Shown here: one piece after another, positions 6,368 through 48,881 of the stretch
Layout of the letters: each line of letters opens with the position of its first letter
How positions within the stretch are numbered: the stretch's first letter is position 1
NCBI GenBank assembly: GCA_017617795.1
Contig: JAFZVM010000013.1
Coordinates: forward strand, 1 to 49,134
Source: Oscillospiraceae bacterium
GTDB taxonomy: Bacteria; Bacillota; Clostridia; Oscillospirales; Oscillospiraceae
DNA length: 49,134 nucleotides
Direction: 5' to 3'
Program-made: the position numbers and the translations under genes
Notes under the pieces: model-generated
The model's database searches: none
What the model saw: only the letters and a program-made list of their open reading frames with translations
Told to the model about the DNA's origin: nothing

Positions 6368-6396
6368 TTGACACCGGCGCGGAAACCCGATATCCT
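6368..6396 (+). promoter_or_regulatory. sigma-A promoter of the blaI-M56 pair
   Basis: A perfect TTGACA (6368-6373), 17-bp spacer and TATCCT (6391-6396). The AT-rich stretch around 6404-6417 (ATAGCATATGATAT) is partly palindromic and would be a sensible place for BlaI autoregulation, but it does not match the classical TACA-TGTA operator. Confidence 0.65.
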
Positions 6397-6433
6397 GTTT
6401 CCATAGCATATGATATGAACAGGAGTAAAAGCC

Positions 6434-6814
6434 ATGGAAAAAGCCTGGAAGATATCCGATTCGGAGTGGCTGGTGCTGCGCTGCCTCTGGAAAAAGTCCC
6501 CCCTGCGGCTCAAGGAGATCACTGCCATGCTCAGGGAGGAGACCGGCTGGACCTCCAACATGGTCCGGGCCATGATCGTACGTCTGCAGGAGAAGGAGGC
6601 CATCCGCGTGGAGCGGACGGGGCACAGCTACAACTACTACCCCATCGCGGATGAAGCTGCCTGCGTAAAACAGGAGACGGAGTCGTTCCTGGACCGGGTC
6701 TTTGAGAGCAGCCTGTCCAGGCTCTTTGCCACCCTGGCGGACACCCGGGGTATCAGCGACCGGGAGCTGGAAGAGCTGGAGGATCTGATCCGGAAGCTGA
6801 AGAAGGAAGAGTGA
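6434..6814 (+). CDS. BlaI/MecI/CopY-family transcriptional repressor
   Basis: This 126-residue protein has the BlaI winged helix at residues 5-70 (ISDSEWLVLRCLW, then the LKEIT helix, TSNMVRAMIVRLQEKEAI and the wing VERTGHSYNYYP), followed by a helical dimerisation tail. In this family the repressor is removed or cleaved after a signal from a partner M56 membrane protease, which here is the next gene, one base after the stop. No beta-lactamase gene lies nearby; the likely regulated targets are this pair and perhaps the ABC genes that follow. The start is supported by AACAGGAG 9 nt upstream. Confidence 0.92.
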   Translation: MEKAWKISDSEWLVLRCLWKKSPLRLKEITAMLREETGWTSNMVRAMIVRLQEKEAIRVERTGHSYNYYPIADEAACVKQETESFLDRVFESSLSRLFATLADTRGISDRELEELEDLIRKLKKEE

Positions 6815-6815
6815 G

Positions 6816-8630
6816 ATGTACGCCGCGACGCTGAAGCTGCTGCACATGAGTCTCCGGGGAGCAGTGCTCATCCTGGCGGCGGCCTTCATCCGCAGCTGCC
6901 TGCTGCGCATCCTGCCCAAGGGCGTGCTGCGCCTGCTCTGGATCCCTGCCATCCTGGCCCTGCTGCTGCCCCTCCCTGTCCTGTATACCGTCACCCTGCC
7001 CATGCCGGTGCTGCCGGTGGAGGGAACGAGTCTTTCGGAGACGGAAACCGACCGGGTGGATTGGGACAGCTGGGAGGCCCTTGCCGCATCTGAACCCGGG
7101 GGCATCCTCACCTCCGAGGCGGGGCCGGCGGCCGAGCCGGGGCGCGGGACGCCGCTGCTGCCGCTGGTATGGCTCACGGGGGCCGGACTCCTGGGCCTCG
7201 GGGTACTGCTGCTCTATCTCCGGGAGTATGCCCGCCTGCGCCGGGCCGTCCCCCTGCGGGGATCGGAAGCCTGGCTGCAGAAGCATCCTGCCCATCGGAA
7301 GCTGAGCCTGCGGCGGCTTCCCGGTCTGCCGGGCCCCATGACCTACGGGGTATTCCACCCCGCCATCCTCCTCCCGGAGGAACCGGACTGGGAACGCCTG
7401 CCGGACCTCCTGGCCCTGGAACACGAATACGTCCACGTGCGGCACCTGGACGCCGCCTGGAAGCTGCTGCTGCATCTGCTGCTGATCCTGCATTGGTTCA
7501 ACCCTTCCGTATGGCTGATGTACTTTCTCCTGAACCGGGATCTGGAACTGGGCTGCGACGAAGCCGTACTCCGGCACTTCGGCAGGGAGCGGCGGACGGA
7601 CTTTGCCTGCCTGCTGGTGGATTCCGGCCGTCGGAGCCGTATTGCGGCTTTCCCGGGCCTGAAGGCCGGGATGCTGCGGGAGCGGGTGAACGCCATCATG
7701 CGCTACCGGCGCGCGGGCATACCCCGCCGCTGCCTGGCCGGAGCCCTGGTGCTGGGGCTGACCCTCTGCGCCTTCTGCTCCCTTCGGGCGGGGGCCGCGG
7801 GAGAAACCTTGTATCGCAGCGGGGGCATGCTCCTTTCCGTGCCCGATGAACTGAAGGATCTGCTGATCGTGGAGACCCCCGCCCTTACCGGGGAGACGAA
7901 GGAGGTCCTGTTCCGGATACTGGAGCGGGAGACCTGGGAGGCGGGAATGGATCTCTACCCCGACTCCCGGCGGGAATACGGCCTCATCCTCACCATTCTG
8001 CGCACGGATGAGGCCACCGCAGGCAGGTATCTGCGTCAGGTGACGGCGTGGGATCTGCTGGCAAGGGACGAGCAGGGGTACTACTACATGGTGAAACGCA
8101 GCACTGTGGAGGCCAATATGCTCACCTCCCCGGAAACGGAGGACCAAAACGCCCGCTGGGAGCGTCGGAAGCTGGTGAACGCCTGGGTCCGGGACCTGCG
8201 GAGCCACGTGGAATGGCAGGGGGATACCCGAACCCGCTATCCCGCCTACAGCTCTGCCGTCTCCGCTTACCTCTCCAGCGTGCTGACGAACCGCACCCAC
8301 CGCTACCACATCAGCTGGGGAGAGGCGGGGACCCGTACGGTCACCGGCAGCACACCCGGGGACCCCTTCCTGGAGCGCATGATCTGGGAAACGGCGTCGG
8401 AATCGGTCCGGGTAAGCGCGGCGCCGCCGGGGGAACCTATCATCGTGACCCAGCCCTTCCGGGACAGAGACCTGTACTTCTGGCCCGGCTCCGACGTGGT
8501 ACTGTGCAGGACCAACGCCAGCACCGCCAGCGATACGCGCAGCTGGTATACCGTACGCCTTCTGGATGAGCCGGAAATAAAAGTGGGGGACCTGGCGGCT
8601 GCCTGGTTCCGGGCGGTGGATACCGACTAG
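6816..8630 (+). CDS. M56-family (BlaR1/MecR1-like) membrane metalloprotease
   Basis: This 604-residue protein begins with several membrane helices (residues 10-60 and 115-135) and carries the M56 zinc site HEYVH at residues 203-207 in EHEYVHVRHLD, followed by LHWFNPSVWLMYF and the third-ligand helix LGCDEAVLRHF (Glu249). A further helix near residues 305-325 leads to an external C-terminal region. That region lacks the penicillin-binding serine motifs (SxxK, SxN, KTG) of BlaR1, so it probably senses something other than a beta-lactam. It is paired with the BlaI repressor just upstream and ends near a terminator-like hairpin before the ABC permease genes. Confidence 0.88.
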   Translation: MYAATLKLLHMSLRGAVLILAAAFIRSCLLRILPKGVLRLLWIPAILALLLPLPVLYTVTLPMPVLPVEGTSLSETETDRVDWDSWEALAASEPGGILTSEAGPAAEPGRGTPLLPLVWLTGAGLLGLGVLLLYLREYARLRRAVPLRGSEAWLQKHPAHRKLSLRRLPGLPGPMTYGVFHPAILLPEEPDWERLPDLLALEHEYVHVRHLDAAWKLLLHLLLILHWFNPSVWLMYFLLNRDLELGCDEAVLRHFGRERRTDFACLLVDSGRRSRIAAFPGLKAGMLRERVNAIMRYRRAGIPRRCLAGALVLGLTLCAFCSLRAGAAGETLYRSGGMLLSVPDELKDLLIVETPALTGETKEVLFRILERETWEAGMDLYPDSRREYGLILTILRTDEATAGRYLRQVTAWDLLARDEQGYYYMVKRSTVEANMLTSPETEDQNARWERRKLVNAWVRDLRSHVEWQGDTRTRYPAYSSAVSAYLSSVLTNRTHRYHISWGEAGTRTVTGSTPGDPFLERMIWETASESVRVSAAPPGEPIIVTQPFRDRDLYFWPGSDVVLCRTNASTASDTRSWYTVRLLDEPEIKVGDLAAAWFRAVDTD

Positions 8631-8737: not shown

Positions 8738-10675
8738 ATGAAGCAGCACCTGAAGTCCCTTTACCGCAGCCCGCTGAAAACGGGCCTGACCCTGCTGCTT
8801 TTGGCGGCGGCGGCATTTCTGTTCCTGTACAACCTTTCGGAATACGCCGTCTCGGACCGGGAATACCGAGAAGCCCGGGACCGGTATGAGGGGGTGCTGA
8901 CGGTGGAGGATTCCGCTCCGCCGGAGCGAAAGAACGCCCTCTTTGATTATTTTCTCCTGACGGACCCCACCAATCCTGCGGAGACCTACGGCTATACGGA
9001 GTATGCGGACGTGCATCATGAAAGCCTCCATCCGGAGACCCTGGCGGAGATGGAGGCCCTGCCCCACATCTCCCGGGTAGAGCGGCGGTACATGACCGCC
9101 GGTGTCTCCCCGGACTATGTGCGCCTGGAAACGGATTGGAGCTTCTTCCCCTACTATGCCCGCTGTGTCCTGGTAGGGACCGTGACGCTGATCCAGCCCG
9201 CCTTCGGCGGAAGCATCATCACTATGGTTTTCCCGGAGATGGGGGAAGAGGGTTTCCAGGCCGTCAGCGTCATGGACTGGGATGTGCTGGCGGGGGACGA
9301 GGCCTGGCTCCGGGGGGACGAGGAACAGCGGGTAGAAATGTGGATCCTGCCTGACGAGCTGAAGGGAAGCCTGTATGAGCTGTTCTGGGCCGATTTCAAT
9401 ACCCGCTGCGCCTTCATCACCCTGGATCCGGACTACTTCTGGTCGGACTTTGAACAGCTGGGGGTGGGACGAAGATACGTCTTCGTCCTGAGGAACAACC
9501 GGGCGGACGGCCACTCAGACAGTCAGAAGGAATCGGAGGAATCACAAGCCGGTATCCGGAACTGGTCCCTGCACCGCTTCTATATGGGAGACGACACCCG
9601 CAAGGGCTGGTGGCCCTATGTGACGGATATCACGGATCTGCCGGAAAACTGGCTGGAAACGGACGAATTTGCCCCCCTGCGGGAACTCATCCAGGTGACC
9701 AACGACGATGTGCACACCTTCGATATGGTGTACACCGGGGACATGGCTGCCATCCGCCGGGTGGCCCAGGGGCGGATTGTCTGCGAAGAGGGGCGCTTCC
9801 TCACCCCGGCGGACGAGGGGCAGCCTGTGTGCGTGGTAAATACGGACGTGCTGGAGGCTTACGGCCTGAAGGTGGGAGATACCCTCACCCTGGACCTGGG
9901 GAACTACCTCTGCGAGCAATACGCTCCCCTGGGGGCGGTGGCCTCCACCCAGGGACGGCATGCCACGGAATTCACCCGGCAGGATTTCACCATCGTGGGT
10001 TCCTGGCGGGATCTGAACGAGGGGAAGCACGCCCAGCGGGACCTGTACTGGTGCTACAGCAACAACGCGATCTTCGTTCCCGCCTCTTTCCTGCCGGACT
10101 GCGTGAACAAGGATACCTATGAAGCGAAGCCCGGAGAAGTGAGCTTCATCGTGGGTGCTGCGGAGGAGATCGTTCCCTTCATGGAGGAGGTCCTGCCGGA
10201 TCTGGAGGCAGAGGACCGCCTGTACGAATTCAGCGACGGAGGCTGGAGCCTTATCGCGGAGGATCTGATACAGGCCAGGAGCCTGGCCCTGGTGAAGCTG
10301 CTGATCTTCGCCGCCGCTGCCCTCTTCGCCCTGGTGCTGACGGTGTGGCTCTTCATCGGCCGGAAGAAGCGGGAGTACGGCATCCTCCGGGCCCTGGGCA
10401 TGCCCAAAGGGGAAGCCGGGAACCGCCTGTTCATCCCCTTCCTGCTCCTGGGGATCCTCTCCGCCGTCCTGGGTCTGATCATCGCCCGGATCGTGACCCT
10501 GCGGCAACTGACCGCCGCAACAGAGGAAACGGCGGTCCATGAGCCCGCAGGCTTTGGTCTCTTCCTCCTGGGAGCGGTGGGCTTCCTGATCCTCCTGGCG
10601 GCGATCGCCCTGGTCGGTCTGGGCCTGATCCGGCGGAAGAGCGTCCTGGAGCTGGTGCAGGAGAAAAACAAATGA
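8738..10675 (+). CDS. FtsX-like ABC transporter permease (large)
   Basis: This 645-residue protein has an N-terminal helix (about residues 16-34), a long extracytoplasmic region of some 490 residues, then three C-terminal helices in the FtsX/MacB arrangement (near 530, 570 and 620). GRKKREYGILRALGMPK between the first two C-terminal helices is the family's cytoplasmic coupling segment. The start was chosen at 8738 because AGGAGG lies 7 nt ahead; the longer in-frame start at 8675 overlaps the promoter. It overlaps the second permease by four bases (ATGA). With that permease and the ATPase at 11947 it forms a MacB/Bce-like exporter or envelope-stress transporter. Confidence 0.85.
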   Translation: MKQHLKSLYRSPLKTGLTLLLLAAAAFLFLYNLSEYAVSDREYREARDRYEGVLTVEDSAPPERKNALFDYFLLTDPTNPAETYGYTEYADVHHESLHPETLAEMEALPHISRVERRYMTAGVSPDYVRLETDWSFFPYYARCVLVGTVTLIQPAFGGSIITMVFPEMGEEGFQAVSVMDWDVLAGDEAWLRGDEEQRVEMWILPDELKGSLYELFWADFNTRCAFITLDPDYFWSDFEQLGVGRRYVFVLRNNRADGHSDSQKESEESQAGIRNWSLHRFYMGDDTRKGWWPYVTDITDLPENWLETDEFAPLRELIQVTNDDVHTFDMVYTGDMAAIRRVAQGRIVCEEGRFLTPADEGQPVCVVNTDVLEAYGLKVGDTLTLDLGNYLCEQYAPLGAVASTQGRHATEFTRQDFTIVGSWRDLNEGKHAQRDLYWCYSNNAIFVPASFLPDCVNKDTYEAKPGEVSFIVGAAEEIVPFMEEVLPDLEAEDRLYEFSDGGWSLIAEDLIQARSLALVKLLIFAAAALFALVLTVWLFIGRKKREYGILRALGMPKGEAGNRLFIPFLLLGILSAVLGLIIARIVTLRQLTAATEETAVHEPAGFGLFLLGAVGFLILLAAIALVGLGLIRRKSVLELVQEKNK

Positions 10676-11817
10676 ACTGGTCAATCCGTTATCTTTTTCG
10701 CCTGCTGGGACGGAACCCGGGGCGGAGCCTGCTGAGTCTGCTGCTGGCGGCGCTCCTGGCCTTTGCCTTCGGCCTGGTGACGGTGCTCCGGGGGATCTAT
10801 GGGGAGCTGTATCAGCAGGTGGAGGTGAAGCCGGTGCTGTCCAACATCGGCTATGAGCGGGCCAGGAAGGTGGAGAACTCCGGCTATGTGCGGGACGCCT
10901 ATTATGAGACCTTCAGCCGGGACTGCGAGATCCAGATGACCGCCGCCCCCTCTTACTTCGTCAACCGCTTCGACAAACTCCTGCATTCGCCGGAGATCCT
11001 CTGGGCGGAGGGCTGGGACGAGGGGACCTTTCTGGCCTCCCAGCGGCAAGTCTGCGTCCTGTACGCGGGCCATGCCGAGGAGCTGGGAGTGGAACTGGGT
11101 GACAGGGTGCGGGTGAATGAGGACCAGTGGCTCACGAACCTCTCCAAGAACGGAAATCCCTTCGAGCCGGGGGAGACATTGGAGCAGCTGCGGGACCGCC
11201 GGCGGCCCTTCGCCGCGGTGGTGGGGCTCATTCAAGGGGAAAACTGGGAGCGCACCGGATTCTTCCCTGCAGCCGCCCATATCCAGTACGGCTGCCTCTT
11301 CCCTGTGTTTGCCCTGGATATTGCGGAATACGTCCTGATGGATTACCACAGCGTCGGAGATTTCCGCATCTTCATCCAGGGGATCCTGGACGGGACCAAG
11401 GGAGCGGCGAAGTTCCACATGGATACGTCCAACGCGGACCGGATCTATAAGATCCACCGGCTGCTGGAGACCCTGTACCCTCTGACCATCGCGGCGGCGC
11501 TCCTCCTGGGGTGTGTGCTGCCGGGGCTCACGGTGCTCCACGCTTCCGGCGAGATCAGCATCCTGCGGGCATTGGGGGCAAAGGCGCGAAAATGCGTGGG
11601 GATCTATACTCTGGCCCAGGTGCTGTGCGCCTTCGTGGGTCTGCTTCTGGGCTTTATTCTGGTGATCCTGATCCAGAGGCCGGACCCGGGAGGGGTGATG
11701 AGACCCTTTGCCTTGTATCTGCTTGCCCACCTGGCGGCCTGCGCCGTCGGCAGCGGGGTGTTTGCCTGGATTTGTGCCAGGAAGCACGTGCTGGCCCAGC
11801 TGCAGGCAAAGGAATAA
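10672..11817 (+). CDS. FtsX-like ABC transporter permease (small)
   Basis: This 381-residue protein has the same plan as its neighbour, with a shorter outer domain: one N-terminal helix (residues 17-40), an extracytoplasmic region of about 225 residues and three C-terminal helices. The coupling segment ASGEISILRALGAKARKC is well conserved. It starts within the stop of the upstream permease, so the two are probably made in equal amounts as a heterodimer. Confidence 0.85.
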   Translation: MNWSIRYLFRLLGRNPGRSLLSLLLAALLAFAFGLVTVLRGIYGELYQQVEVKPVLSNIGYERARKVENSGYVRDAYYETFSRDCEIQMTAAPSYFVNRFDKLLHSPEILWAEGWDEGTFLASQRQVCVLYAGHAEELGVELGDRVRVNEDQWLTNLSKNGNPFEPGETLEQLRDRRRPFAAVVGLIQGENWERTGFFPAAAHIQYGCLFPVFALDIAEYVLMDYHSVGDFRIFIQGILDGTKGAAKFHMDTSNADRIYKIHRLLETLYPLTIAAALLLGCVLPGLTVLHASGEISILRALGAKARKCVGIYTLAQVLCAFVGLLLGFILVILIQRPDPGGVMRPFALYLLAHLAACAVGSGVFAWICARKHVLAQLQAKE

Positions 11818-11893
11818 GGCGCCCTGCGGGCGTTAAAAGGGAAGAGGTATCCGGACAAACAGAGTGAAATACCGCCGCAAAGCGGCGCTCCTT

Positions 11894-34734: not shown

Positions 34735-35316
34735 CTATGCCCACCAGATCTCTCTCCGCATTTCCTGCGGCAGCCGGCTGACCGGCATATCGTACCGATC
34801 ATCCTTTCCCAAAGCCTCATCCTCTTCTTTGATACTGCGCAGTTTTTCAGCGATCCGGCTCTGATCCAGGACCTCCTGCAGGACCCCCTTTTCAAATGAA
34901 ACGCTCAGCAGGGTCTGATAGGCAAAGGGTCTCTGCAGGCCGATATTTATCCGGTATTGCCAGATGAATCCGTCCGCCAGAAGGATCCTGCCGGTATAGT
35001 CCATGGTCATATCAAGGTTCTCGTACTTTTCGTGTATCATTTCCGGATTGACAAAGGCCAGGGTCCCGCTTCGCGGCGTGATGCTGACGCCGTTCAGCGG
35101 CGGGTATCTGCAATCCTTGTCATGGATACTGAGCGTCTGCAGTTTGACGACGTTCGTGATCTCAAATTCACACCAGTAGCCATCCCAGCAATTCGTATCG
35201 ACAGCCGACGGATGGAATCCGTGTTCCTTCGGATAGAAAAGCCTGCCGTCGGACAGTTTAAGGCAATCGTATTCGACCCCTTTATGGCGATACACATCTC
35301 CGATCTGTGCAGTCAC
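34735..35316 (-). CDS. hypothetical protein, paralogue of the 35545 gene
   Basis: This 193-residue protein is a tandem paralogue of the one at 35545-36117: both begin MTAQIGDVYR, share YWCEFEIT, VVKLQTL, YPPLNGVSI, DYTG+ILLADGFIW and end EIWWA. The GTG start has GGAGTAAACC ahead, as in its paralogue. No signal peptide and no membrane helix are visible. Residues 150-190 are helical. The function is unknown; it may be a substrate, an accessory or an immunity-like protein of the adjacent radical SAM system. It lies after a copied 3' fragment of the radical SAM gene. Confidence 0.78.
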   Translation of the reverse strand: MTAQIGDVYRHKGVEYDCLKLSDGRLFYPKEHGFHPSAVDTNCWDGYWCEFEITNVVKLQTLSIHDKDCRYPPLNGVSITPRSGTLAFVNPEMIHEKYENLDMTMDYTGRILLADGFIWQYRINIGLQRPFAYQTLLSVSFEKGVLQEVLDQSRIAEKLRSIKEEDEALGKDDRYDMPVSRLPQEMRREIWWA

Positions 35317-35540
35317 GGTTTACTCCTCCCTTCACGTGTCCCGGGCAATGCGCCGCCGCGGTCCCCATTTCCCCGCTCTCTGACGCACAGCCGGTTTTCG
35401 TACAGCTTGCCTCCGGCGAAATAATTGTGGCTCCGGCAGCCGCCCGCGCAGAACTCCCCGAGCTCGCATCTGCCGCATCTGCCGCATCTGCCAGTCAGGC
35501 GGTCCGGGGTGAAGCGGCGGTTATAGGCAAAGGCGTTTTC
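35317..35540 (-). pseudogene. duplicated 3' end of the radical SAM gene
   Basis: This interval matches the last 220 bp of the radical SAM gene (36120-36340) nearly base for base. The reading frame still spells AYNRRFTPDRLTG, CELGEFCAGGCRSHNYF and GGKLYENRLCVRE, i.e. the SPASM cysteine region, but has no start. A 9-bp unit is expanded, giving CGRCGRC where the parent has CGSC, and the original stop is changed. It shows that a unit of radical SAM tail plus the 190-residue gene was duplicated in tandem. Confidence 0.88.
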
Positions 35541-35544
35541 CCCG

Positions 35545-36117
35545 CTATGCCCACCAGATCTCTTTTCTCACTTCCTCCGGCAGCGCCTGGATCGGCGTTG
35601 TATCCCAGCCGTATTTTCTGATCCATCGATCCTCTTCCTTGATTTTTCGCAGCTGTTCAGCGATTCCGCTTTGATCGCGGATCTCCTTCAGTACTCCATT
35701 TTCAAACTCAAAGCTCAATAGAGTCTGAAAAGCATGAGGCTTTTGCAGGCCCATGTGGATATAATAATTCCAAATGAAACCGTCTGCTAACAAGATTTTT
35801 CCTGTATAGTCTATGGCCAATCCGATGTTCTCGTATTTCGCATACGTCTCGCCCGGAAACGCACTCATCCCAGGGGACGAAATGCTGACACCGTTCAACG
35901 GAGGATAGCTTCCGTTTTTATCGTGGATATGAAGCGTCTGCAGCTTTACAACATCCGTTATCTCGAATTCACACCAGTATCCAGCCCAGCAGCAGGTCTC
36001 AATAAACAATGGATGGAATCCATGATCCCACGGGCTGAAAAGCCTGCCATTCGATAGGTCAAGGCATTCATATTTTATATTTTTGGTCCGATAAACATCA
36101 CCGATTTGCGCAGTCAC
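35545..36117 (-). CDS. hypothetical protein directly after the radical SAM gene
   Basis: This 190-residue protein is the presumed parent copy of the pair; its GTG start lies two bases after the radical SAM stop, with GGGAGGAG overlapping that stop, so it is tightly coupled to the enzyme. Conserved positions shared with the copy at 34735 include the Trp/Tyr/Cys group near residues 42-48 (CCWAGYWCEFEIT versus NCWDGYWCEFEIT) and the C-terminal EIWWA. No known family recognised. It could be a substrate, an accessory protein or a target of the maturase. Confidence 0.8.
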   Translation of the reverse strand: MTAQIGDVYRTKNIKYECLDLSNGRLFSPWDHGFHPLFIETCCWAGYWCEFEITDVVKLQTLHIHDKNGSYPPLNGVSISSPGMSAFPGETYAKYENIGLAIDYTGKILLADGFIWNYYIHMGLQKPHAFQTLLSFEFENGVLKEIRDQSGIAEQLRKIKEEDRWIRKYGWDTTPIQALPEEVRKEIWWA

Positions 36118-36119
36118 GG

Positions 36120-37205
36120 TTAACTCCTCCCTTCACATTTCCCGGCCAATGCGCCGCCGCAGTCCCCATTTCCCTGCTCTCTGACGCACAGCCGGTTTTC
36201 GTACAGCTTGCCTCCGGCGAAATAATTGTGGCTCCGGCAGCCGCCCGCACAGAGCTCCCCGAGCTCGCAGCTGCCGCATTTTCCGGTCAGGCGGTCCGGG
36301 GTGAAGCGGCGGTTGTAGGCAAAGGCGTTTTCATCCTCCCAGATGTCCCGGAGGGGCCGCTCCCGGAGGTTCCCCTCGATGAAGACTTCGTCGTACAGGC
36401 TTTCGCATCCCCGGACGTTTCCCACGCTGTCGATGCCCAGGGTGCTCAGCCCGGCGCTGCAGCCGCCGAAGGCCGCTCCTCTTCTGCCCCGGATGTTCGT
36501 TTCCTCCGGGGTGTAATACCCGATGTTGTCGGCAATGATCACGCGGAAAGGCGCTTCCCCCGCTATCCCGGCAACGAAACGGATCACACGGAGAGGGTCA
36601 AAGCGCGTATCCAGTCCGACGTCCTGGGCGTATCCCATGGAATTGCAGGCCTGGAGCTGCCAGGCAAAGATCGGGTATGCCTTCAGGGACTCGTAAAACT
36701 CCGGCAGCAGGGGTGCGTTATTGGCCCGCAGTGTGGTGATGACAGACGTCGGGATCCCTGCTTCCGTAAGCGCGGCAATCGCCTCCAATGCCCGGCGATA
36801 ACTGCCCCTTTGGCGGCAGGCGTCATGGACCCGCTCCGGTCCGTCCAGGGATACGGCCACGGATTCGATCCCCAGACGGGAAAGCGTTTTCACCGTCGCG
36901 GCCGTCAGGATAAATCCGCTGGTGATCACACACACCTTCAGTCCGAGTCCCGCCAGCGCGCCGACGATCCTGGCCCAGTCATCCCGCAGAAAGATCTCTC
37001 CACCCAGGAGATTCACGCGTCCGCAGCCCAAGTCGGCCAATTGCCGTGCCACATCCAGGCATTCTTCCGTGTTCAGTTCGTTTACCCTGGCTTCCCCGGC
37101 CCGGCTCCCGCAGAAAGCACACCGAAAACAGCATTTATGCGTCAATTCCCATACGACCCTGGAAAGCCTCCAGGGAAAATCAGTAGTAATTGATGATGTC
37201 ATCAT
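36120..37205 (-). CDS. radical SAM protein with C-terminal SPASM domain
   Basis: This 361-residue enzyme has the radical SAM cluster CCFRCAFC (Cys25, Cys29, Cys32: CxxxCxxC), GGE at the SAM-binding strand (NLLGGEIFL), a TIM-barrel body and a SPASM-type C-terminus (CGSCELGELCAGGCRSHNYF, then LC and GDCGG) for extra [4Fe-4S] clusters. SPASM enzymes such as PqqE, MftC and AlbA modify ribosomal peptides or activate enzymes. I place the start at the tandem ATGs 37203-37205/37200-37202, which overlap the upstream 146-residue gene by 26 bases; longer readings upstream are in that gene's antiphase and not plausible. Peptide maturation is likely, with the 146-residue protein or the downstream paralogues as candidates. 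Confidence 0.88.
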   Translation of the reverse strand: MMTSSITTDFPWRLSRVVWELTHKCCFRCAFCGSRAGEARVNELNTEECLDVARQLADLGCGRVNLLGGEIFLRDDWARIVGALAGLGLKVCVITSGFILTAATVKTLSRLGIESVAVSLDGPERVHDACRQRGSYRRALEAIAALTEAGIPTSVITTLRANNAPLLPEFYESLKAYPIFAWQLQACNSMGYAQDVGLDTRFDPLRVIRFVAGIAGEAPFRVIIADNIGYYTPEETNIRGRRGAAFGGCSAGLSTLGIDSVGNVRGCESLYDEVFIEGNLRERPLRDIWEDENAFAYNRRFTPDRLTGKCGSCELGELCAGGCRSHNYFAGGKLYENRLCVREQGNGDCGGALAGKCEGRS

Positions 37206-37620
37206 CGTCACCCGGCGTACGGCCATCCTCGTCCGATCGATCCGGAGCATTCCAGTCGGCATCCACCTCCGGCGCTGCGTAAAGCGGACGCTCGCAAAGC
37301 TTCTTGTTTTTGTCTTCAAAGTCCGGTCCGCCATACAGGATGCCTTTCGCCAGCTCGGCGAACTCCTCCGAAATCCTCTGAAGCAGATCCCGATCCGGCT
37401 CCTGTTCATCGTTCTCTGCCGACGTTGTACGACCCTCATCGGATCCCGGTTCCCGTTTATATTTGCTCAGCATCCGGTTGATCTCTTCCAGCATTTTCTT
37501 GCTTTCTTCCCCAAGCCTGTCGATAAAGCTGAAATCCATCTCCAGGGAATCCTTGTCTGCAGGATCTGCGTCCTTTCCGGCCGCCGCATGATTCATCGGA
37601 TATCTGCGATTATAGGACAT
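37180..37620 (-). CDS. acidic 146-residue protein, candidate precursor or partner of the radical SAM enzyme
   Basis: This protein is strongly acidic with a helical N-terminal half (EESKKMLEEINRMLSKYK, RISEEFAELAKGILYGG) and a flexible C-terminal tail rich in Asp, Pro, Gly and Tyr/Trp, ending GDDDDIINYY. The arrangement of leader-like helix and unstructured aromatic tail is what one expects of a substrate for a SPASM maturase, and the last 26 bases overlap the enzyme's start. It is longer than most RiPP precursors (usually under 100 residues), so a chaperone-like or partner role is also possible. A good ribosome binding site (AAGGAGG) precedes the ATG. Confidence 0.65.
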   Translation of the reverse strand: MSYNRRYPMNHAAAGKDADPADKDSLEMDFSFIDRLGEESKKMLEEINRMLSKYKREPGSDEGRTTSAENDEQEPDRDLLQRISEEFAELAKGILYGGPDFEDKNKKLCERPLYAAPEVDADWNAPDRSDEDGRTPGDDDDIINYY

Positions 37621-40372: not shown

Positions 40373-41047
40373 TCATTGAGCGTCGTCTTTCCGATCATCG
40401 ATCCGGGGAAGCTGCAGGATCCGGATCATGAATTCCTGGATGCGCTGACGGTATGCCGCTTCCCGAAACTCTCTGCAGCGTCCGCGTTCCCGAAAGTACC
40501 GCCGAGGCTGTCTCCTGCGTTCTGTCGGCGGATTGGGAGGCGCAAAACTTCGGGCCTCTGCCGGCTCGTCTTCTCCCGTTCCCGGCAGATCTGTCTCGTC
40601 CGAACAGGCGAAAAGCGCCGGGAACCGGCTGCAGGCCGCCAGCGCCAATTCCAGATCAAAGAGCACCGACAGGCAGATCCGTCCCACGTCCTTGTCGGAT
40701 ACCAGCGGGGGGATCGGACACACCAGCATGATGTCAGCCTCAAACAAATCAAGGTATACCCTGACCCCGGATTCTGTCAGCAGTTCGAAGTTGACCGCAT
40801 TGAGCGCTTCATACAAAGGGAGATCCGGCTCCTCGACACAGTGTGCGAGGTAGACGCACGATTCGATCACATGAAGATCTCCCGTGTCCTGTATCACACG
40901 AAAGAATGCGGTATGAAACCCATGCGAAACAGGACCGCGGATATGAACGGCGATCTCCGCTGTTCCGTCGTCCGCCTCCAGCGTACAGGTCATCCGCGAA
41001 CGGGCTTCGAACGCGCGGCGGATCAGGTCCAGTGTATTTTTGGCCAA
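40373..41047 (-). CDS. hypothetical protein, 224 residues, TTG start
   Basis: The first 145 residues look like an alpha/beta domain (AKNTLDLIRRAFEARSRM, then strands and YEALNAVNFELLTESGVRV), a little like YbjN or type III chaperone-like folds; this is a weak visual impression. The C-terminal 75 residues are basic and probably flexible (Arg/Pro-rich). The start is TTG at 41045-41047 with AAAGGAGG 8 nt ahead; a reading from 41089 has no ribosome binding site. Function unknown. Confidence 0.68.
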   Translation of the reverse strand: MAKNTLDLIRRAFEARSRMTCTLEADDGTAEIAVHIRGPVSHGFHTAFFRVIQDTGDLHVIESCVYLAHCVEEPDLPLYEALNAVNFELLTESGVRVYLDLFEADIMLVCPIPPLVSDKDVGRICLSVLFDLELALAACSRFPALFACSDETDLPGTGEDEPAEARSFAPPNPPTERRRQPRRYFRERGRCREFREAAYRQRIQEFMIRILQLPRIDDRKDDAQ

Positions 41048-41216
41048 GGGAACAGCCTCCTTTCCCGGCAGTGATCCTGGTGGATCCATTTCTCCCGCCC
41101 CATATGCCGCATTCTGAACGGAACATCCTCCTGCGCGCTCACTGCGGCATGCGCGGCGCGTCTTCCCGGTGTAATGCCATTGGCGGATAAACGGTTCCGT
41201 TCACCGGAGCTGCGGA

Positions 41217-43088: not shown

Positions 43089-44741
43089 ATGAGCAATACC
43101 ATACCGCTGAATGATCCGCTGAATCTGCGGGATTTTATCGCAAGGCTCACCGATACCATCCGGGAGAAAGGCGGTCCGGACCCAGCGCCGAAGAGCATCG
43201 TCGGGTTCCTCGCCCTGATCCTGCCGAATCCGGATGCCGCTGATGCGCAGAAGGACGGCGGCGTTTCCCCGGCGGAATCCGATACCTCCAAGTCGACAAA
43301 GCCTACCAACGTCACGACGATGCAGAGGCTGCTTTCCGGCAACATTCCCTACAGCACGAAAGCAGTCCAGGCGATGGCCGACGAGATCTGCTCGGGAAGC
43401 AGAGACGCAGAATTGCTGGAAAGTATGGCCGTCGTTGCCAACGCGATCCTGGGAAGCTCCGAAGGAGCGGATTATTTCAAAAACCGATTATACCCGCTGA
43501 TCAGTTTTCGCTTCTTTTCCGACGAAGAGCTGCAGACACTCAAGTCCCTGCTGGAGGAAAAGGACTATCCCCGATTCCTCCTGGCCCTTCTGAAGCACGG
43601 GTTCGGCAGCTTATACAATCTGCCCTGTTTCTTTTCACAGCGAATGTTTGAGGAAGCCGTCACCTGCGATTTTGACTCCCCCCACCGATACGCCCTGATG
43701 AAAGCCGCTGCGGATAATGGATCCCGCGACGCGGCGCTGGAATATGCCAATTACCTGGCCCGTCATCCCAATTCCGGCGCGGACGAGTATTTCTTAATGG
43801 CGATCCCCAGACCTTCGGCGGTCTGGGCCATTGCATACCAGCTGGAGATCGGGTGGATCAGCCGGGATGGGCTGCCTCGATTCCAAAACGCTTTCCGGGT
43901 GGATGAAAAGCTCAACGGTCCGGAGTTCGAGCCATATCGTCAGGAATTGGAAGGGATCGTTTACGGCGGACAGGATCAGGAAATGAAGGAGACGATGCTA
44001 TACATATACAGGGTGTATTTCTACCTGGCTTACACGGATTACTTTAAGGGCTTTCACAGCATGGCCAAGCAGCTGGAGACCGGTACGATCCGGTTCGAAG
44101 GTCCCGGCAGCGCCGAAAAAACCGCCCGTCTGCGAAAAAAATACCGGGATGCCTCCATCAGGGCTTCCGTCGTGATCTCCAGCATGTCCGAGGGGAATTA
44201 TCTGCTGCAGAAACAGATGGAGGAAGGAAAATACGATCCCGGCTCTGAGGCGGAACGCAGATCTCTTGAACTGCTGGAGCTTGGGGCGGAAATGGATCTT
44301 CTGTACGGCAATTATCATTTGGGCGAATACTACGAATACGTCAGCCGCAGGGATCCGGAGAAACCGGAATCCAGAAAGATTGCCAACGCTTTCTATATGC
44401 GGGCGGCACAGCTGGATACGGACGGGACCGGCCGCCAGGGCAAGCTGTGGCTGAAGCTGGGTCTGGTTTCGGATTCCCCGGAGGAAAAGCGGAAATATTT
44501 CGAGATGGCGCTGGACGCCAGGCAATGGGACGCCGCGTATTACCTGGCGGATATGGAGATGAACCGGTATATGTCAGGCGGGGAATCGGCGATGCTCCAT
44601 CTGTACAGTTCATATAAGTATCTGAGAGAATACCTGCCCATGATCTCCGGTGAAAACCGCAGGATGGCAGATCTTCTGTATCGCGGCCTGTGTTCTTTAT
44701 TTGAAGAGAACAGCAAAAACAAAACGGGATCGCAGACGTAA
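43089..44741 (+). CDS. helical-repeat (Sel1/TPR-like) protein
   Basis: This 550-residue protein is mostly alpha-helical. The C-terminal two-thirds have Sel1-like features: AAADNGSRDAALEYANYLA, GNYHLGEYYEYVSRRDPEKPE, AFYMRAAQLDTDGTGR, KLWLKLGLVSDSPEE and YYLADMEM. The N-terminal 110 residues include LSGNIPYSTKAVQAMADEI, which may be a small helix-turn-helix, so a sensor or regulator is possible. No signal peptide or membrane helix; cytoplasmic. The start follows AGGAGG by 6 nt. Function unknown. Confidence 0.72.
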   Translation: MSNTIPLNDPLNLRDFIARLTDTIREKGGPDPAPKSIVGFLALILPNPDAADAQKDGGVSPAESDTSKSTKPTNVTTMQRLLSGNIPYSTKAVQAMADEICSGSRDAELLESMAVVANAILGSSEGADYFKNRLYPLISFRFFSDEELQTLKSLLEEKDYPRFLLALLKHGFGSLYNLPCFFSQRMFEEAVTCDFDSPHRYALMKAAADNGSRDAALEYANYLARHPNSGADEYFLMAIPRPSAVWAIAYQLEIGWISRDGLPRFQNAFRVDEKLNGPEFEPYRQELEGIVYGGQDQEMKETMLYIYRVYFYLAYTDYFKGFHSMAKQLETGTIRFEGPGSAEKTARLRKKYRDASIRASVVISSMSEGNYLLQKQMEEGKYDPGSEAERRSLELLELGAEMDLLYGNYHLGEYYEYVSRRDPEKPESRKIANAFYMRAAQLDTDGTGRQGKLWLKLGLVSDSPEEKRKYFEMALDARQWDAAYYLADMEMNRYMSGGESAMLHLYSSYKYLREYLPMISGENRRMADLLYRGLCSLFEENSKNKTGSQT

Positions 44742-44786
44742 GTATTTGTCCGGCGATCTCCGATCTCGTTCACATGAGGGCGAAAC

Positions 44787-45230
44787 ATGGTTGTAAGGAT
44801 TAACCACACGAATGGCTCGACGGTCAAAACCAAAGAATGCCGCAGCGTGATCCGCGTTTCTGCAAGCCCCGATCAACGATACGCCGTGGCGGAAACTTCT
44901 CCGGGTGTCTTTGTGGCAATGAAAGTGACGTTGCTGGACGGGGATCTGCTGATCGGGGAATTTGTCAACTCCTGCGTATATTCCGATGACACGCCGATGC
45001 TGAACAGCATTTTCGTCGATTGGGGATGTATTGGATTCGGTTTTTGCAAGCTGATCCTTTGGGCACCCGAATGTGTCAATGAATTTGGAGGATTTGAAAA
45101 GACCATCGAGCGATTCTATTTTGATTGGGAGCTGTACAAAACCTGCTACGAGAAACTGCATGGAGTTCCCTGCAAAAAGAAATCCCCAAACGCCGGATCG
45201 GCTTGGGATCGCCAATCACGGATCTTCTGA
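44787..45230 (+). CDS. hypothetical protein, 147 residues
   Basis: I do not recognise this protein. It is mixed alpha/beta with six Cys residues (CRS, CVY, GCIGFGFC, CVN, CYE, CKK) and aromatic Trp/Phe blocks (FVDWGCIGFGF, ERFYFDWELY). There is a weak ribosome binding site (GAGGG) 6 nt ahead, and it lies 45 bp after the helical-repeat gene, so co-transcription is likely. Confidence 0.6.
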   Translation: MVVRINHTNGSTVKTKECRSVIRVSASPDQRYAVAETSPGVFVAMKVTLLDGDLLIGEFVNSCVYSDDTPMLNSIFVDWGCIGFGFCKLILWAPECVNEFGGFEKTIERFYFDWELYKTCYEKLHGVPCKKKSPNAGSAWDRQSRIF

Positions 45231-45317
45231 GGATCGTGGAACATAGAAGCCCTGTGAGGAGGCAGACAGGACCTGTCAACACGGGGAACGTTTCATCGTG
45301 ACGCTGAAGAGGCGGAT

Positions 45318-46295
45318 ATGCTGGGGAGTGCGAAGGATCCCGTATCAGACAGCAGCACAAGGGAGTGGCGATCTTTGAAATCTGCATTGACGACCGAGAG
45401 CGTAAAGGATACGCTGGAAAAGACGTTTCAGGAATTCAATCACATCGGAGAATCATATCGGAGGGGATTCTTAAACGACTCCGATTTCCTGTATGGGATG
45501 GAACAGGCGTTATACCGCGGCTTTTGGAGTTTTCTGAGCGCCAACGGGATAGAATTGCGCATCAATGAGGCGAACTATCCATCGTTTGCAAAAGAGTACC
45601 GAGCCTGTTTCGATGGTGTTGACGAGGAGGGTCACAGCCAGCATTCCTGGTTTTGCGACCGCAGAGATCCCACCGGTGAAGCATCTGCGAATGACAGCAG
45701 AATGATTTTTAACCTGATGGGAAAATACCATATGGGGCCGGATTATTTTGAGCCTATCCCGGAGGACATTCCCAGATACAGCCTTCACGGGATCCATCAA
45801 TATCATTCTGCCGGAGTTTGCGGCACGGATTTCAACTGTGTTGATGACGGAGGTTTGTTGTCGGACGATCGTCCGGTGGGAAAAACGTTCCGGCTGAAAA
45901 ACGATCTCGGCCTGGAAGCGGTGCTCACGATCAAAGAGGACCGCAGGAACGGGAACCGAAGCGGCATGGATTTTGATGAACTGGTTATTTCGTCAGATAA
46001 AGGTACAGAAGTTCTCTTAGCTGAGTTCCTCGCTGAAGGGTATATCGAAGGATATACTGCCAAAGAGCGAACCGGTAATCCGGATATCCTGGTAAGGCTT
46101 CAAAACAAAGGGAAACAAGTTTGCTGGCTGGCATATTGGAGAGATTCCAACGACGAAAAAGCATTTTTGGATTATCCGCTGTGGCAAAGCAATTTTGACT
46201 GGGATTCGCAAAAAATCCTCAGACAAAGGCAGCTGTTGGCGCCTTTCTTCAATGCATTTAAGATAAAGAATCAGACGCCGAATCCGGATGCCTGA
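45318..46295 (+). CDS. hypothetical protein, about 306-325 residues
   Basis: I do not recognise this protein. It has a helical N-terminal half with FNHIGESYRRGFLNDSDFLYGM, a Gly/Asp/Cys-rich middle (GVCGTDFNCVDDGGLLSDDRPVG) and a mixed C-terminal part with VCWLAYWRDSNDEKAF. The start could be ATG at 45318 (AAGAGG 5 nt ahead) or TTG at 45375 (AAGGGAG 9 nt ahead); the shorter one gives 306 residues. No signal peptide. It lies 87 bp after its neighbour in the same direction. Confidence 0.6.
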   Translation: MLGSAKDPVSDSSTREWRSLKSALTTESVKDTLEKTFQEFNHIGESYRRGFLNDSDFLYGMEQALYRGFWSFLSANGIELRINEANYPSFAKEYRACFDGVDEEGHSQHSWFCDRRDPTGEASANDSRMIFNLMGKYHMGPDYFEPIPEDIPRYSLHGIHQYHSAGVCGTDFNCVDDGGLLSDDRPVGKTFRLKNDLGLEAVLTIKEDRRNGNRSGMDFDELVISSDKGTEVLLAEFLAEGYIEGYTAKERTGNPDILVRLQNKGKQVCWLAYWRDSNDEKAFLDYPLWQSNFDWDSQKILRQRQLLAPFFNAFKIKNQTPNPDA

Positions 46296-46651
46296 GGCTG
46301 GTTCTCCCGAAGGCGCTGCGGCTGGCTGCAAGCCAGTATTCTCAGGTCCGGGGAGCTCACCCGGGGAGAATATGACCACTGGCGATAATGCTGCCGGAGT
46401 ACGACAAGAGCCATTTGTGAGTACGGTCCCACTATTTGTATAGACTTGCCCTGGATAGTTGAATATTCATATTGCTCGAGTAATCGTTTCCCAAACCAAT
46501 AATCTTCCGACGCAAAAAAACTTTGATCTCATTTACACAGAGCTAGTATTTCCCTGCGTGAAGCTGATCGAAGGTATTTAACTGGACGAAGCCTAATAAT
46601 ACAAAGGTAGTTAGCCACGCCACCTTTAACTAGCAGAAGGAGAAGAAGAGC
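46296..46651. other. gap of 356 bp with no gene seen
   Basis: The left part (46296-46375) has several short GC-rich inverted repeats (such as CTGGCT/AGCCAG near 46331) and a CCGGGGAGC-type dyad, perhaps a degenerate terminator. The right part is AT-rich and must hold the promoter of the 46652 gene, but no clear -10/-35 pair stands out. An imperfect dyad of AAAGGT and ACCTTT lies at about 46602-46627. I see no coding frame with a ribosome binding site. Confidence 0.5.
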
Positions 46652-47902
46652 ATGAGTGAGTATGGGTTTTCTGGCGAAATGAATCTTGACACATGGAATT
46701 CAGGTACAAATCGTGCTTATAAAGCGATGGACAGAGGTGATGTGGATAGAGCCATTCGAGAAGCTAGACTTGTTGAGGATAGCTACCTGAAACACCGGCG
46801 TGGTACTGACAAGTGGAATAAATTAGTTACTATTGTGACTGCAGTTATTATCGTAATGGCAATTGTATTGGGCATTGCCTCTGGTTCTTGGATAGCTGCA
46901 ATCATCGTAGGCGTTATCGGGTTTGCATTCTGTGGTTTTCTTAACAGCAAAATAGTTGACAAAAGAATAGCGGTAGATAATGCCTTCTATGATAGTTATG
47001 AAAATCTCGTAGAAGCGATAAACCAGTTTTCCACTGCCGCCCGTGTCAACCTAGACGATCCCACCTCCGCTACCGCCCGTGTCAAACCAGACGATCCCAC
47101 CACCGCTGCCGACCATGTCAAACCAGACAATCCCACCTCCGCTGGCGCCCGTGGGCAAGCGAAAAGTCGATGGATCCCCTTAGTCTGCTTAGTCCTGATC
47201 CTGGTGACTGCCGTGGTGCTGTACTTTACCGGGATTTTTGAAAACTCCTCCGGACTGAAACCACCCGCCTCCCCGGTCAGCGCTGCCGCGACACCTGCGC
47301 CAGACTCGAAACTCCGTCCGGGGATCGCCACCCCAAAGGTCACCCCGGAATCAACACCGAAAGTCACCGCGGAACCAATGCCCCATGACACCCCCGTCGT
47401 TACCGAATCACAGAATGGTAACCAGCATTCAACCCACGAGAAGGATCCCGACAGCGCGATCGGCTCGATCACAATATTGGTCCATGCCCTTCGGCTCAGG
47501 CAGTCTCCCAGCACTGATGGGAAGGAGTTGGGCAAGACAACAAAGGGGGAAAAATTCCAGGTTTTTGAAATCGTACATACGGATGAATATACCTGGTACA
47601 GAATAGGAGCGGATTTCTGGGTTGCGGACAAAGATGGCAATTACGTCTCTTTTTCGGATGATGCTTCTCCGACAAGCTGGGACCTGACCCATTCCTTGGG
47701 AACCATTAAGATCCTGGTCGATACGCTTAAAATCAGGACAGCTCCAAGCACCCACGCAGAAGAAACTATCTGGACAGCAAAGGGTGACGTGTACCGAGTC
47801 TATGAGGTCACTTCAGCGGACGGATACACTTGGTACAGAGCCGGACCGGAAGCATGGATCGCGGACAAGGAAGGGAAATACGTTCTTTTCACCGAGCATT
47901 AA
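46652..47902 (+). CDS. membrane protein with two extracellular SH3b domains
   Basis: This 416-residue protein has an N-terminal helical cytoplasmic part (to about residue 60), a hairpin of two membrane helices (about 64-100), a linker with three 12-residue repeats (at 131-166), a third helix (WIPLVCLVLILVTAVVLYF, about 175-195), a Pro/Thr-rich stalk with P-K-V-T repeats, and two SH3b domains (about 275-335 and 345-410: HALRLRQSPS, DTLKIRTAPS, YTWYRIG, YTWYRAG). The SH3 pair is very similar to that of the 15336 lipoprotein, so they are paralogues. SH3b domains bind peptidoglycan stem peptides or ligands at the wall. Ribosome binding site AGAAGGAGAAG. It is AT-rich at the 5' end. Confidence 0.78.
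   Translation: MSEYGFSGEMNLDTWNSGTNRAYKAMDRGDVDRAIREARLVEDSYLKHRRGTDKWNKLVTIVTAVIIVMAIVLGIASGSWIAAIIVGVIGFAFCGFLNSKIVDKRIAVDNAFYDSYENLVEAINQFSTAARVNLDDPTSATARVKPDDPTTAADHVKPDNPTSAGARGQAKSRWIPLVCLVLILVTAVVLYFTGIFENSSGLKPPASPVSAAATPAPDSKLRPGIATPKVTPESTPKVTAEPMPHDTPVVTESQNGNQHSTHEKDPDSAIGSITILVHALRLRQSPSTDGKELGKTTKGEKFQVFEIVHTDEYTWYRIGADFWVADKDGNYVSFSDDASPTSWDLTHSLGTIKILVDTLKIRTAPSTHAEETIWTAKGDVYRVYEVTSADGYTWYRAGPEAWIADKEGKYVLFTEH
47042..47149 (+). repeat. three copies of a 36-bp in-frame repeat
   Basis: Units at 47042-47077, 47078-47113 and 47114-47149 encode V-x-x-D-D/N-P-T-S/T-A-x-x-x variants between the second and third membrane helices of the SH3b membrane protein. The copies differ at a few bases, so expansion is recent but not fresh; copy number could vary among strains. 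Confidence 0.85.
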
Positions 47903-48229
47903 CCAGACGGCCGATCTAGGCACGCCGGGAGTCGCAAATCATGTATTTCATTGAAATGCCGTGAGCTTCAAATTATCGGGCAGATTGAAGAGGCATACCA
48001 GCTATGAGAGAATGAATTGGGGCTCTATTAGACTTCCATAGAGTCGATTTGTCACGTTTTGAGGGCACAGATAGCTCCGTCTATGGCAAGTGTTTTGAAC
48101 TGGACATATGTTTAAGGCCACGCTTTTGCCATCATACATATTTCAAAGTCAGTTAGCCATGCTATTTTCAGAAAAGTATATCTTTTAAAAATGATTGGTG
48201 CTGTCAAACCGAATATTAGGAGGATGGAT
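47903..48229. other. AT-rich gap of 327 bp with no gene seen
   Basis: No credible frame with a ribosome binding site. A broken small gene starts at 48230 with AGGAGG just ahead. The composition (about 42% GC by eye) matches the flanking accessory genes rather than the core. Confidence 0.5.
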
Positions 48230-48320
48230 ATGAGCTGCCCTTATTATTTGGTACAATAATCACTATGCGTGCAGGAAGTCTGGCAAGGATGTCAACGAGG
48301 ATATAGAGGGTAGTTATTGA
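48230..48320 (+). pseudogene. frameshifted small Cys-rich protein gene
   Basis: A strong ribosome binding site (AGGAGG) precedes ATG at 48230, but the frame stops after nine codons (MSCPYYLVQ). Deleting one T in the run near 48247-48249 restores a frame reading MSCPYYWYNNHYACRKSG, then KDVNEDIEGSY and a stop at 48318-48320. The CPYYW...YACRKSGKDVNED pattern is like small zinc-ribbon-type proteins common in Clostridia, so this is a decayed member with a single-base frameshift and a truncated end. Confidence 0.7.
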
Positions 48321-48359
48321 ATTCTAAAAGTTCACAAATAGCAAATAGGAGGCTAAGAA

Positions 48360-48881
48360 ATGATCGACAATTCTTCTGACAAAGGCTATATTACTGTTGT
48401 AACCAAAAAAGGAGATGATGGGAAACACCTCTGTGAGATTGGGTTTACAAAGGGACCGGACGAAGAATCATTCTATGTTGACTATGAAAATGGTGAAATA
48501 TTCATAGACTATAGTGATGGCAAAGAAATCATTGGTACATATGAGTCTACTCCGAGCAGTCAATACGGTGCCAGAGTATTTGATTATCCCTCAAATCGGT
48601 TAATTGGGCTTGTTGGCAATGAACTGATATATTTTTATAAGGGTAAAGATGCAGACAGAATCATCCTTGACGGGGCGTGCTTAGCCGATTACTCTGGAGC
48701 TGGAAGCATTTCTTTACACGGGCATCCTCTAGATGACTTTGGCCTTATTAATGGAGGGGAGATAGGAGGAGCGGCTGCCTTCGTAGCGCTATTCTATAGT
48801 TACAAGTTTATCGGCGTGTTCCGAGATTATTTTGAAATGGATGAGAGTTCATTCAAGATTAAATACGCTTCCCTCTTATGA
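48360..48881 (+). CDS. hypothetical protein, 173 residues
   Basis: I do not recognise this protein. The N-terminal half is beta-rich (YITVVTKKGDDG, FYVDYENGEIFIDYSDG); the C-terminal part has one hydrophobic stretch (GGAAAFVALFYSYKFIGVF) that may be membrane-associated. The start has AATAGGAGG 7 nt ahead. It is AT-rich (about 40% GC), like the genes left of it and unlike the core. It lies just before the left end of an IS element. Confidence 0.65.
   Translation: MIDNSSDKGYITVVTKKGDDGKHLCEIGFTKGPDEESFYVDYENGEIFIDYSDGKEIIGTYESTPSSQYGARVFDYPSNRLIGLVGNELIYFYKGKDADRIILDGACLADYSGAGSISLHGHPLDDFGLINGGEIGGAAAFVALFYSYKFIGVFRDYFEMDESSFKIKYASLL

Follow-up and report, generated by a model that had tools for sequence, protein, structure and literature searches.

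What does a radical SAM/SPASM enzyme act on when its gene begins inside that of an acidic protein, and which chemistry might it carry out there? The question arises from a cluster of genes in a 49,134-nucleotide stretch of DNA from a gut-type Oscillospiraceae bacterium (contig JAFZVM010000013.1; hereafter the window is this whole stretch).

Layout of the locus

The whole gene set between positions 34735 and 37620 lies on the minus strand:

37180..37620, minus: 146-residue acidic protein, probably disordered; proposed to be the enzyme's precursor substrate, with several sites
37591..37602, minus: YPMN box, residues 7-10 of the acidic protein; like the YPxN/YPWxK of most relatives' precursors, a possible recognition element
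37324..37338, minus: LYGGP, residues 95-99, proposed splice site 1; contains the canonical X-Y-G; matrix score 5.7 including the next D
37270..37284, minus: LYAAP, residues 113-117, proposed splice site 2; X-Y-A variant; matrix score 5.9 including the next E
36120..37205, minus: 361-residue radical SAM/SPASM enzyme; CxxxCxxC close to the N-terminus, C-terminal SPASM cysteines, WQLQ and NIGYY; proposed splicease-like
35545..36117, minus: B1, 190-residue protein with a GTG start at 36117, downstream of the enzyme; probably accessory or passenger
35322..35543, minus: headless copy of the SPASM-encoding 3′ end of the enzyme gene; its protein is 87% identical to residues 291-361
34735..35316, minus: B2, 193-residue paralogue of B1; 64% protein identity to B1

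These coordinates agree with an earlier note on this DNA: the enzyme gene starts at an ATGATG (37205/37202) 26 bases inside the gene of the acidic protein, whose tail reads GDDDDIINYY, and stops at 36120; the 190-residue gene follows after a gap of 2 bases and has indeed been duplicated, B1 and B2 being 68% identical in DNA. The duplication also covers the enzyme gene's 3′ end (residues 291-361), and this copy is 94% identical over 213 aligned nucleotides. Both the headless SPASM copy and the tyrosine motifs LYGGP and LYAAP are absent from the earlier note.

That note had tentatively drawn the 190-residue family, a lipoprotein and a membrane protein into one maturation and export system, a proposal that found no support on comparison. 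Among 300 family genomes two carry the B family: the window's own and one of the 299 others. That second carrier, 71% complete, yielded no enzyme above threshold. Relatives of B at ~35% identity lie on four cyanobacterial plasmid records, and in the three examined the annotation shows no radical SAM gene within 4 kb of B; searches of viral contigs gave no confirmed match, and those of phages none. On these grounds B1/B2 were rejected as substrate or core partner, and the 190-residue genes are probably accessory or passenger. A PDB profile search for a fold gave a best E of 0.61, and Pfam nothing above cut-off.

Two more genes lie upstream on the minus strand: one, of 465 aa, is lipoprotein-like (lipobox LLLAGCGS), and the other, of 413 residues, has been described as encoding a membrane protein. 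These two, a 238-residue gene and a PcfJ-like gene had no match around ten near-clade relatives (3.6-19.9 kb each). The lipoprotein lost further ground as a partner: of 149 other family genomes, eight have weak partial matches to it, and in none of these eight was the enzyme detected. A chaperone role for the 238-residue protein, encoded upstream, was likewise dropped (Pfam Chaperone_III under cut-off; best PDB E 0.47), as was a defense system: PADLOC returned just weak TIR hits, with TIR-WD40 and SLOG/DUF4231-like neighbors in locus L024 and, by similar start, L025.

The enzyme and its nearest relatives

The enzyme matches Pfam Radical_SAM (1.5e-25) and SPASM (5.4e-07), and C24, C28, C31 and further C-terminal cysteines are invariant in 27 aligned enzyme rows. 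Its top NCBIfam model is TIGR04103 (rSAM_nif11_3; 9e-74), at 248.5 bits, far under the curated cut-off of 725. This model is NCBI's name for a Nostoc enzyme to which the window enzyme is 36-39% identical. We take TIGR04103, "nif11-class peptide radical SAM maturase 3," to be one family with InterPro IPR026482; the splicease PlpX, which excises tyramine, presumably belongs to these nif11_3 maturases. In the published accounts, PlpX works together with PlpY and excises tyramine at X-Y-G (PMC11002830, PMC10533398), and IPR026482 is given as the spliceotide splicease family (PMC11002830).

The second NCBIfam match, TIGR03913 (GDL motif peptide-associated maturase), reaches 203 bits against a cut-off of 591.75, and unlike that group the locus showed no DUF1843 match among ten window genes scanned. 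TIGR03962 (mycofactocin MftC) scores 116 bits (1.5e-33) and misses its cut-off of 265; nine other window genes scanned had no match to mycofactocin families. Nor does the enzyme resemble the anaerobic sulfatase-activating group raised in the earlier note: TIGR03942 is not among the best 25 NCBIfam matches listed, and the ten genes scanned gave no sulfatase match. A WQxQ plus [IV]GY[YF] signature is found in 27/27 enzymes of the window, nif11_3, GDL and KYGYP/KYAAP groups and in 0/14 other radical SAM proteins, a count that overstates independence because the controls hold near-copies (L063-L065, L066-L067, L068/L070) and one search pattern for L016-L023 included the WQLQ stretch.

In two trees the window enzyme falls within a monophyletic clade of 11 clostridial enzymes (100/99). 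The nearest other clades are the NCBI nif11_3 maturases, the GDL/DUF1843 maturases and enzymes paired with KYGYP/KYAAP repeat proteins; the branch that sets the three clades apart from the remaining radical SAM proteins lacks good support (88/92 in one tree, 74/59 in the other). Judged by sequence, the enzyme sits beside PlpX-type maturases and represents a variant within a known class, not the system of a new kind suggested earlier.

The three neighboring groups resemble the window locus in different ways. Like PlpX and PlpY, the window has a radical SAM/SPASM enzyme beside a candidate precursor with one X-Y-G motif, next to one X-Y-A, and possibly several sites, and the enzyme shares the WQxQ and GY[YF] signature of the Nostoc member. 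The GDL group shares the signature as well, and its peptides carry LYGG, PYGV, LYAAG and PYGAG (a further DUF1843 peptide has MYMA instead). The KYGYP/KYAAP enzymes (L018-L023, L028, L047; Fibrobacter, Lachnospiraceae and others) are 34-38% identical to the window enzyme and have a multi-site XY[G/A]xP protein directly upstream. In contrast to the window clade they are ~130-165 residues longer at the C-terminus, and their substrates carry, in place of zinc ribbons, chagasin-like protease-inhibitor domains (6/8, five via one shared profile) or S-layer domains (L028).

Tyrosine sites in the upstream proteins

The acidic protein (38 D/E vs 21 K/R) has no NCBIfam match, only a sub-threshold Pfam match to DksA_N, and no match to a Nif11 or NHLP leader. 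It carries two XY[A/G]xP copies, LYGGPD and LYAAPE, and the N-terminal YPxN box. A corresponding gene recurs throughout the clade: in 11/11 members the gene whose end falls within 26 bases of the enzyme start encodes 2-7 XY[A/G]xP copies, with X mostly Val. Precursors were assigned by reading all ORFs, as a greedy ORF set had missed some, and the enzyme starts used for L017 and L026 in this comparison are off by one and two codons.

The 47 strict sites in ten relatives' precursors have V (41), I (3), A (2) or T (1) before the tyrosine and A (46) or G (1) after it, followed in all 47 by G and then P. The L027 precursor has VYAPP/IYASP; those of L024 and L025 have seven [V/I]YAGP sites each. YG and YA alternate inside one protein in the window, in L043 and in the KYGYP/KYAAP group, where a precursor holds up to 13 sites. 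Eight of the 11 relatives' precursors have a YP box in their first 45 residues (YPxN five, YPWxK three), as does the window's; those of L016b, L017 and L027 have none there. Zinc ribbons stand at the C-terminus in 7/11.

The earlier note had coupled the enzyme to the acidic protein, and proposed looking for changes on the aromatic tail and asking whether both flanking genes recur. The recurrent pairing bears out the coupling, with the acidic protein the probable substrate. The aromatic tail was discarded as the target: none of the 11 relatives' precursors has a YY end, and what they share is the internal XY[A/G]xP motif. Of the two flanking genes, only the motif-bearing upstream one recurs (11/11); B is absent from the stretches around all other group enzymes.

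The motif exceeds chance. A first test, with the motif picked after seeing the window, gave 0/100000 shuffles for the strict form, P 0.0013 for.Y[AG].P and 0.26 for.Y[AG] alone. Because of that choice, we built a position matrix from the relatives only, with the window left out, and compared the window protein with 20000 shuffles: its second-best site was equaled in 4 and its best site in 448. The window sites score 5.7-5.9, far under the relatives' 13-20. Among 263 ORFs of 100 aa or more, a greedy set that omits several real small genes including the window's acidic gene and contains spurious ORFs, only four reach the second-site score, and all four are enzyme-adjacent precursors.

Elsewhere in the group, enzymes adjoin precursors of a Nif11- or nitrile-hydratase-like kind that have YG in the core; the Nif11 precursor of the Nostoc enzyme ends SIALYGLPPELF. 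Among the genes listed for L029, for L037 and for L060, a locus from a viral collection that bears the signature, none is a clear XY[GA] precursor.

Proposed tyramine excision and its alternatives

We favor, with modest confidence, a two-gene cassette in which the acidic protein would be the substrate and the overlapping enzyme would act on its internal XY[A/G] motifs as a stand-alone, splicease-like protein, excising tyramine and rejoining the chain. Each site would become an alpha-keto-beta-amino unit, whose electrophilic alpha-keto amide could serve as a warhead against serine or cysteine proteases; X would then be the P1-like residue. The chagasin-like domains in six of the eight sister precursors suggest this inhibitor role. 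A separate recognition protein is not evident, and the enzyme may itself read the sites along with the YPxN box.

Two features differ from PlpX and PlpY: near-clade sites are mostly X-Y-A-G-P (the window has one LYG and one LYA), whereas PlpX is described for YG, and the search turned up no counterpart of PlpY, the protein with which PlpX works. The 71-residue protein downstream of the Nostoc enzyme is, from its position, a candidate PlpY; a single-sequence search, which is insensitive, found no homologue in the 11 near-clade loci.

Chemistry varies widely among close branches of the radical SAM/SPASM families. These same two differences, together with the limited identity to the nif11_3 member, would fit other radical chemistry at the same sites: a Tyr-ring crosslink, epimerization, or alpha-carbon oxidation at Tyr or the next residue. 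We regard this as rather unlikely, and the signature common to the window and Nostoc enzymes speaks against it. For the crosslink there is a further obstacle. A three-residue cyclophane (triceptide) requires a beta carbon on the motif's third residue, and glycine, which has none, occupies the second position after Tyr in 47/47 relatives' sites and likewise in LYGG of the window, although LYAA has Ala there and could still form such a crosslink.

It is improbable that the acidic protein is an adaptor or regulator whose motif binds the enzyme or another protein, the true substrate lying elsewhere, for example in B1/B2. Zinc ribbons are unusual for RiPP precursors, no known-class leader was matched, and B1 closely follows the enzyme; against this, multiplication of sites (up to 7 in the window clade) and the core YG of precursors beside the group's other enzymes suit a substrate, and B is missing from the stretches around those enzymes. 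Maturation of a C-terminal Tyr or YY into a redox cofactor or tag, as by MftC or PqqE, is very improbable. The window protein's YY end recalls the CGVY of the compared MftA, and TIGR03962 does match the enzyme, but far below its cut-off; the YY end is not conserved, and the MftC, PqqE and TIGR04053 rows lack the signature.

Returning to tyramine excision, we tentatively extend it, as a possibility we hold less firmly than the cassette itself, to the whole clostridial clade: stand-alone enzymes needing neither leader nor PlpY would splice Tyr from X-Y-A and X-Y-G in disordered, often zinc-ribbon proteins, and the amino acid preceding Tyr (Val, Leu, Lys) would set the protease specificity of multi-warhead products. 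If so, beta-amino-acid splicing would reach multi-site proteins without a recognized leader, and X-Y-A sites, and this rare chemistry could make ordinary proteins multi-headed protease inhibitors. A V-Y-A-G-P tag with one ~345-residue enzyme would then be simpler than PlpXY for placing keto-amide handles in proteins. The chagasin-XYG fusions of the sister group suggest a natural logic: an inhibitor domain joined to electrophilic warheads.

A rare radical SAM enzyme and its partly copied locus

Checked on the sequence, the genes at 34735-37620 have the coordinates and overlaps that the earlier note described:

37180-37620, minus: acidic 146-residue gene, first in transcription order
36120-37205, minus: radical SAM/SPASM gene, starting 26 bases inside the acidic gene
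35545-36117, minus: B1, 190-residue gene, third in transcription order
35322-35543: headless copy of the radical SAM 3' end (SPASM end), between B1 and B2
34735-35316, minus: B2, B1 paralogue, last in transcription order

The enzyme has Radical_SAM and SPASM domains (Pfam). Its best NCBIfam match, at 248 bits where the cut-off is 725, is TIGR04103 (nif11-class peptide radical SAM maturase 3), which we take to correspond to IPR026482; the second is TIGR03913 (GDL peptide-associated), at 203 bits where the cut-off is 592. Because it scores below both cut-offs, we place it in neither. Enzymes of this type are rare, matching in 7/300 family genomes at E 1e-30, and at 1e-50 in 6/394 order and 4/398 phylum genomes (tool-drawn, overlapping samples, the window's own genome counted in each); eight further loci came from a genome-contig collection. 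Ten enzymes at 54-73% identity form one clade with the window enzyme (the near clade; support 100/99, two trees with different outsiders).

The 190-residue gene had been read as duplicated, and B1 and B2 are indeed paralogous (68% DNA and 64% protein identity), but the copied stretch is longer than that reading allowed, since it includes the headless radical SAM 3' end (94% identity over 213 nt). Because identity is high across the SPASM end and the stretch ahead of the B start, and falls thereafter, the arrangement looks like recombination at a shared, conserved 5' module joined to divergent B bodies.

A probable substrate protein with repeated tyrosine sites

The earlier note paired the enzyme with its acidic neighbour and named recurrence of both neighbours as the check. 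The upstream partner does recur: at 11/11 near-clade loci, tyrosine motifs are repeated in the product of a gene that ends at most 26 bases from the enzyme start, and an enzyme-substrate pair is well supported. Ten precursors of relatives (nine loci, two precursors in L016) hold 47 strict sites. The residue before the Tyr is V in 41, I in 3, A in 2 and T in one; the residue after it is A in 46 and G in one; G and P follow in all 47, with E the commonest next residue (28). The L027 precursor carries VYAPPE and IYASPP.

In the window protein the sites are LYGGPD and LYAAPE, its top two by a matrix built from the relatives' sites alone, the window excluded. Both resemble the consensus of the relatives weakly, scoring 5.7-5.9 against 13-20. 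Shuffles of the protein matched its best site in 448/20000 cases and its second-best in 4/20000, and only four of 263 ORFs (100 residues or longer) had a second site that good, all four being enzyme-adjacent precursors. A YPxN box lies near the N-terminus of the window protein, and 8/11 relatives' precursors have a YP box. C-terminal zinc ribbons occur in 7/11 (L016b, L017, L026, L043-L046); the window protein, with a single cysteine, did not match a zinc ribbon.

Sister systems and the possible product

The next group, at 32-38% identity, comprises Fibrobacter, Lachnospiraceae and other enzymes (L018-L023, L028, L036, L047-L049), and a further group comprises a Nostoc TIGR04103 enzyme (36-39% identity) and GDL enzymes (L035, L038, L039). 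Support for joining them with the near clade, to the exclusion of other radical SAM proteins, is weak (88/92 in one tree, 74/59 in the other). WQxQ and [IV]GY[YF] motifs are present in 27/27 members of these groups, counting L029 and L037, and in 0/14 radical SAM proteins used for comparison. The 14 consist of eight next-best matches taken from two of the genomes that supplied these enzymes (several being near-copies of one another), three proteins of the window genome, and single MftC, PqqE and TIGR04053 representatives. Both motifs also occur at three of five viral-collection loci (L058-L060); L061 and L062 lack both. In one of these, an IMG/VR contig (L059 3293-4872), the enzyme with the signature is preceded by three proteins with tails that look GDL/DUF1843-like (PYGV, LYGV, LYAA).

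The gene preceding each of enzymes L018-L023, L028 and L047 encodes 3 to 13 XY[G/A]xP sites. KYGYP is the commonest form in L018, L020, L021 and L023; L047 has KYAAP instead, and its further variants are YMAP, YFAP, YEAP and YMPP. The L047 protein has an N-terminal domain of the chagasin family of peptidase inhibitors (PF09394, 4e-09), matched by a profile of the N-terminal domain of five KYGYP proteins (L018, L020-L023, with L019 left out; probability 91.6%, 8e-07); those five had no Pfam chagasin match when taken singly, and no PDB match. At these six loci, next to a splicease-like enzyme, a chagasin-like cysteine-protease-inhibitor domain is fused to KYGYP/KYAAP-type sites, 3-13 in number. 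The L028 protein has S-layer domains rather than chagasin, and its product is possibly surface-displayed:

L028 10073-11023, minus: S-layer-homology protein, four sites of the XY[GA]xP form, gene immediately ahead of the sister-clade enzyme

Peptides adjoin other enzymes of these groups: an AYG core with a sub-threshold nitrile-hydratase-alpha match (L048, L049), a Nif11 peptide ending ALYGLPPELF (Nostoc), and LYGG, PYGV, LYAAG or PYGAG, with MYMA in one (GDL type). Counting against the pattern, the sole candidate at L036 is a small unannotated ORF with MYG, and no clear XY[GA] precursor was found among the neighbouring genes listed for L029, L037 and L060; a lone XY[GA] in a short peptide is by itself weak evidence.

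According to a review, PlpX, placed in IPR026482 and studied together with the RRE protein PlpY, excises tyramine from Xaa-Tyr-Gly to give an alpha-keto amide (PMC11002830), and another paper gives the mass loss as -135.0757 Da (PMC10533398). Judged by enzyme family, the likeliest reaction at the window sites is the same splicing. The product might act as a protease inhibitor, a role suggested by the sister clade, whose chagasin fusions fit it, and by a paper that, citing Scott et al. 2022, credits alpha-keto-beta-amino residues with protease inhibition (PMC10373908). Our literature search, drawing on PMC10533398, PMC10373908, PMC11002830, PMC9505594 and PMC10885120, turned up nothing on VYAGP proteins or chagasin-XYG fusions among the papers listed. 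Scott et al. 2022, the principal survey, lay outside its reach, and because its title names peptides and proteins, parts of the finding may already be in print.

Neighbours outside the system

The B family does not seem to belong to the system. Of 299 other family genomes one, G003, carries it, and no relative of the enzyme scored above threshold there, an absence that is soft because the estimated completeness of G003 is 71%. B had no confirmed match in viral contigs or phages. Distant relatives (about 35% identity) lie on four cyanobacterial plasmid records; in the three examined, no radical SAM gene is annotated within 4 kb of them:

L074 4001-4549: B relative, no Pfam match
L075: B relative; the fourth codon is a stop, and the tblastn match starts upstream of it
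L076 4001-4549: B relative

The lipoprotein and membrane protein, proposed earlier as system parts, drop out: neither they nor the 238-residue and PcfJ-like genes, all upstream, had a match around the ten near-clade relatives (L043 stretch only 3.6 kb) or twelve other loci. The 238-residue protein (window 40373-41089, minus) matches type III secretion chaperones below threshold (Pfam, 0.0043). At L024, a TIR-WD40 gene (5742-8480) is divergent from the precursor and a SLOG/DUF4231-like gene (10246-11841; sub-threshold Pfam matches) overlaps the enzyme stop; similar-looking genes occur at L025, in a genome of the same genus. In the window, 43089-48881 (plus) holds a run of five genes, lying for the most part in DNA of lower GC; one has bacterial SH3 domains and the other four match nothing in Pfam.
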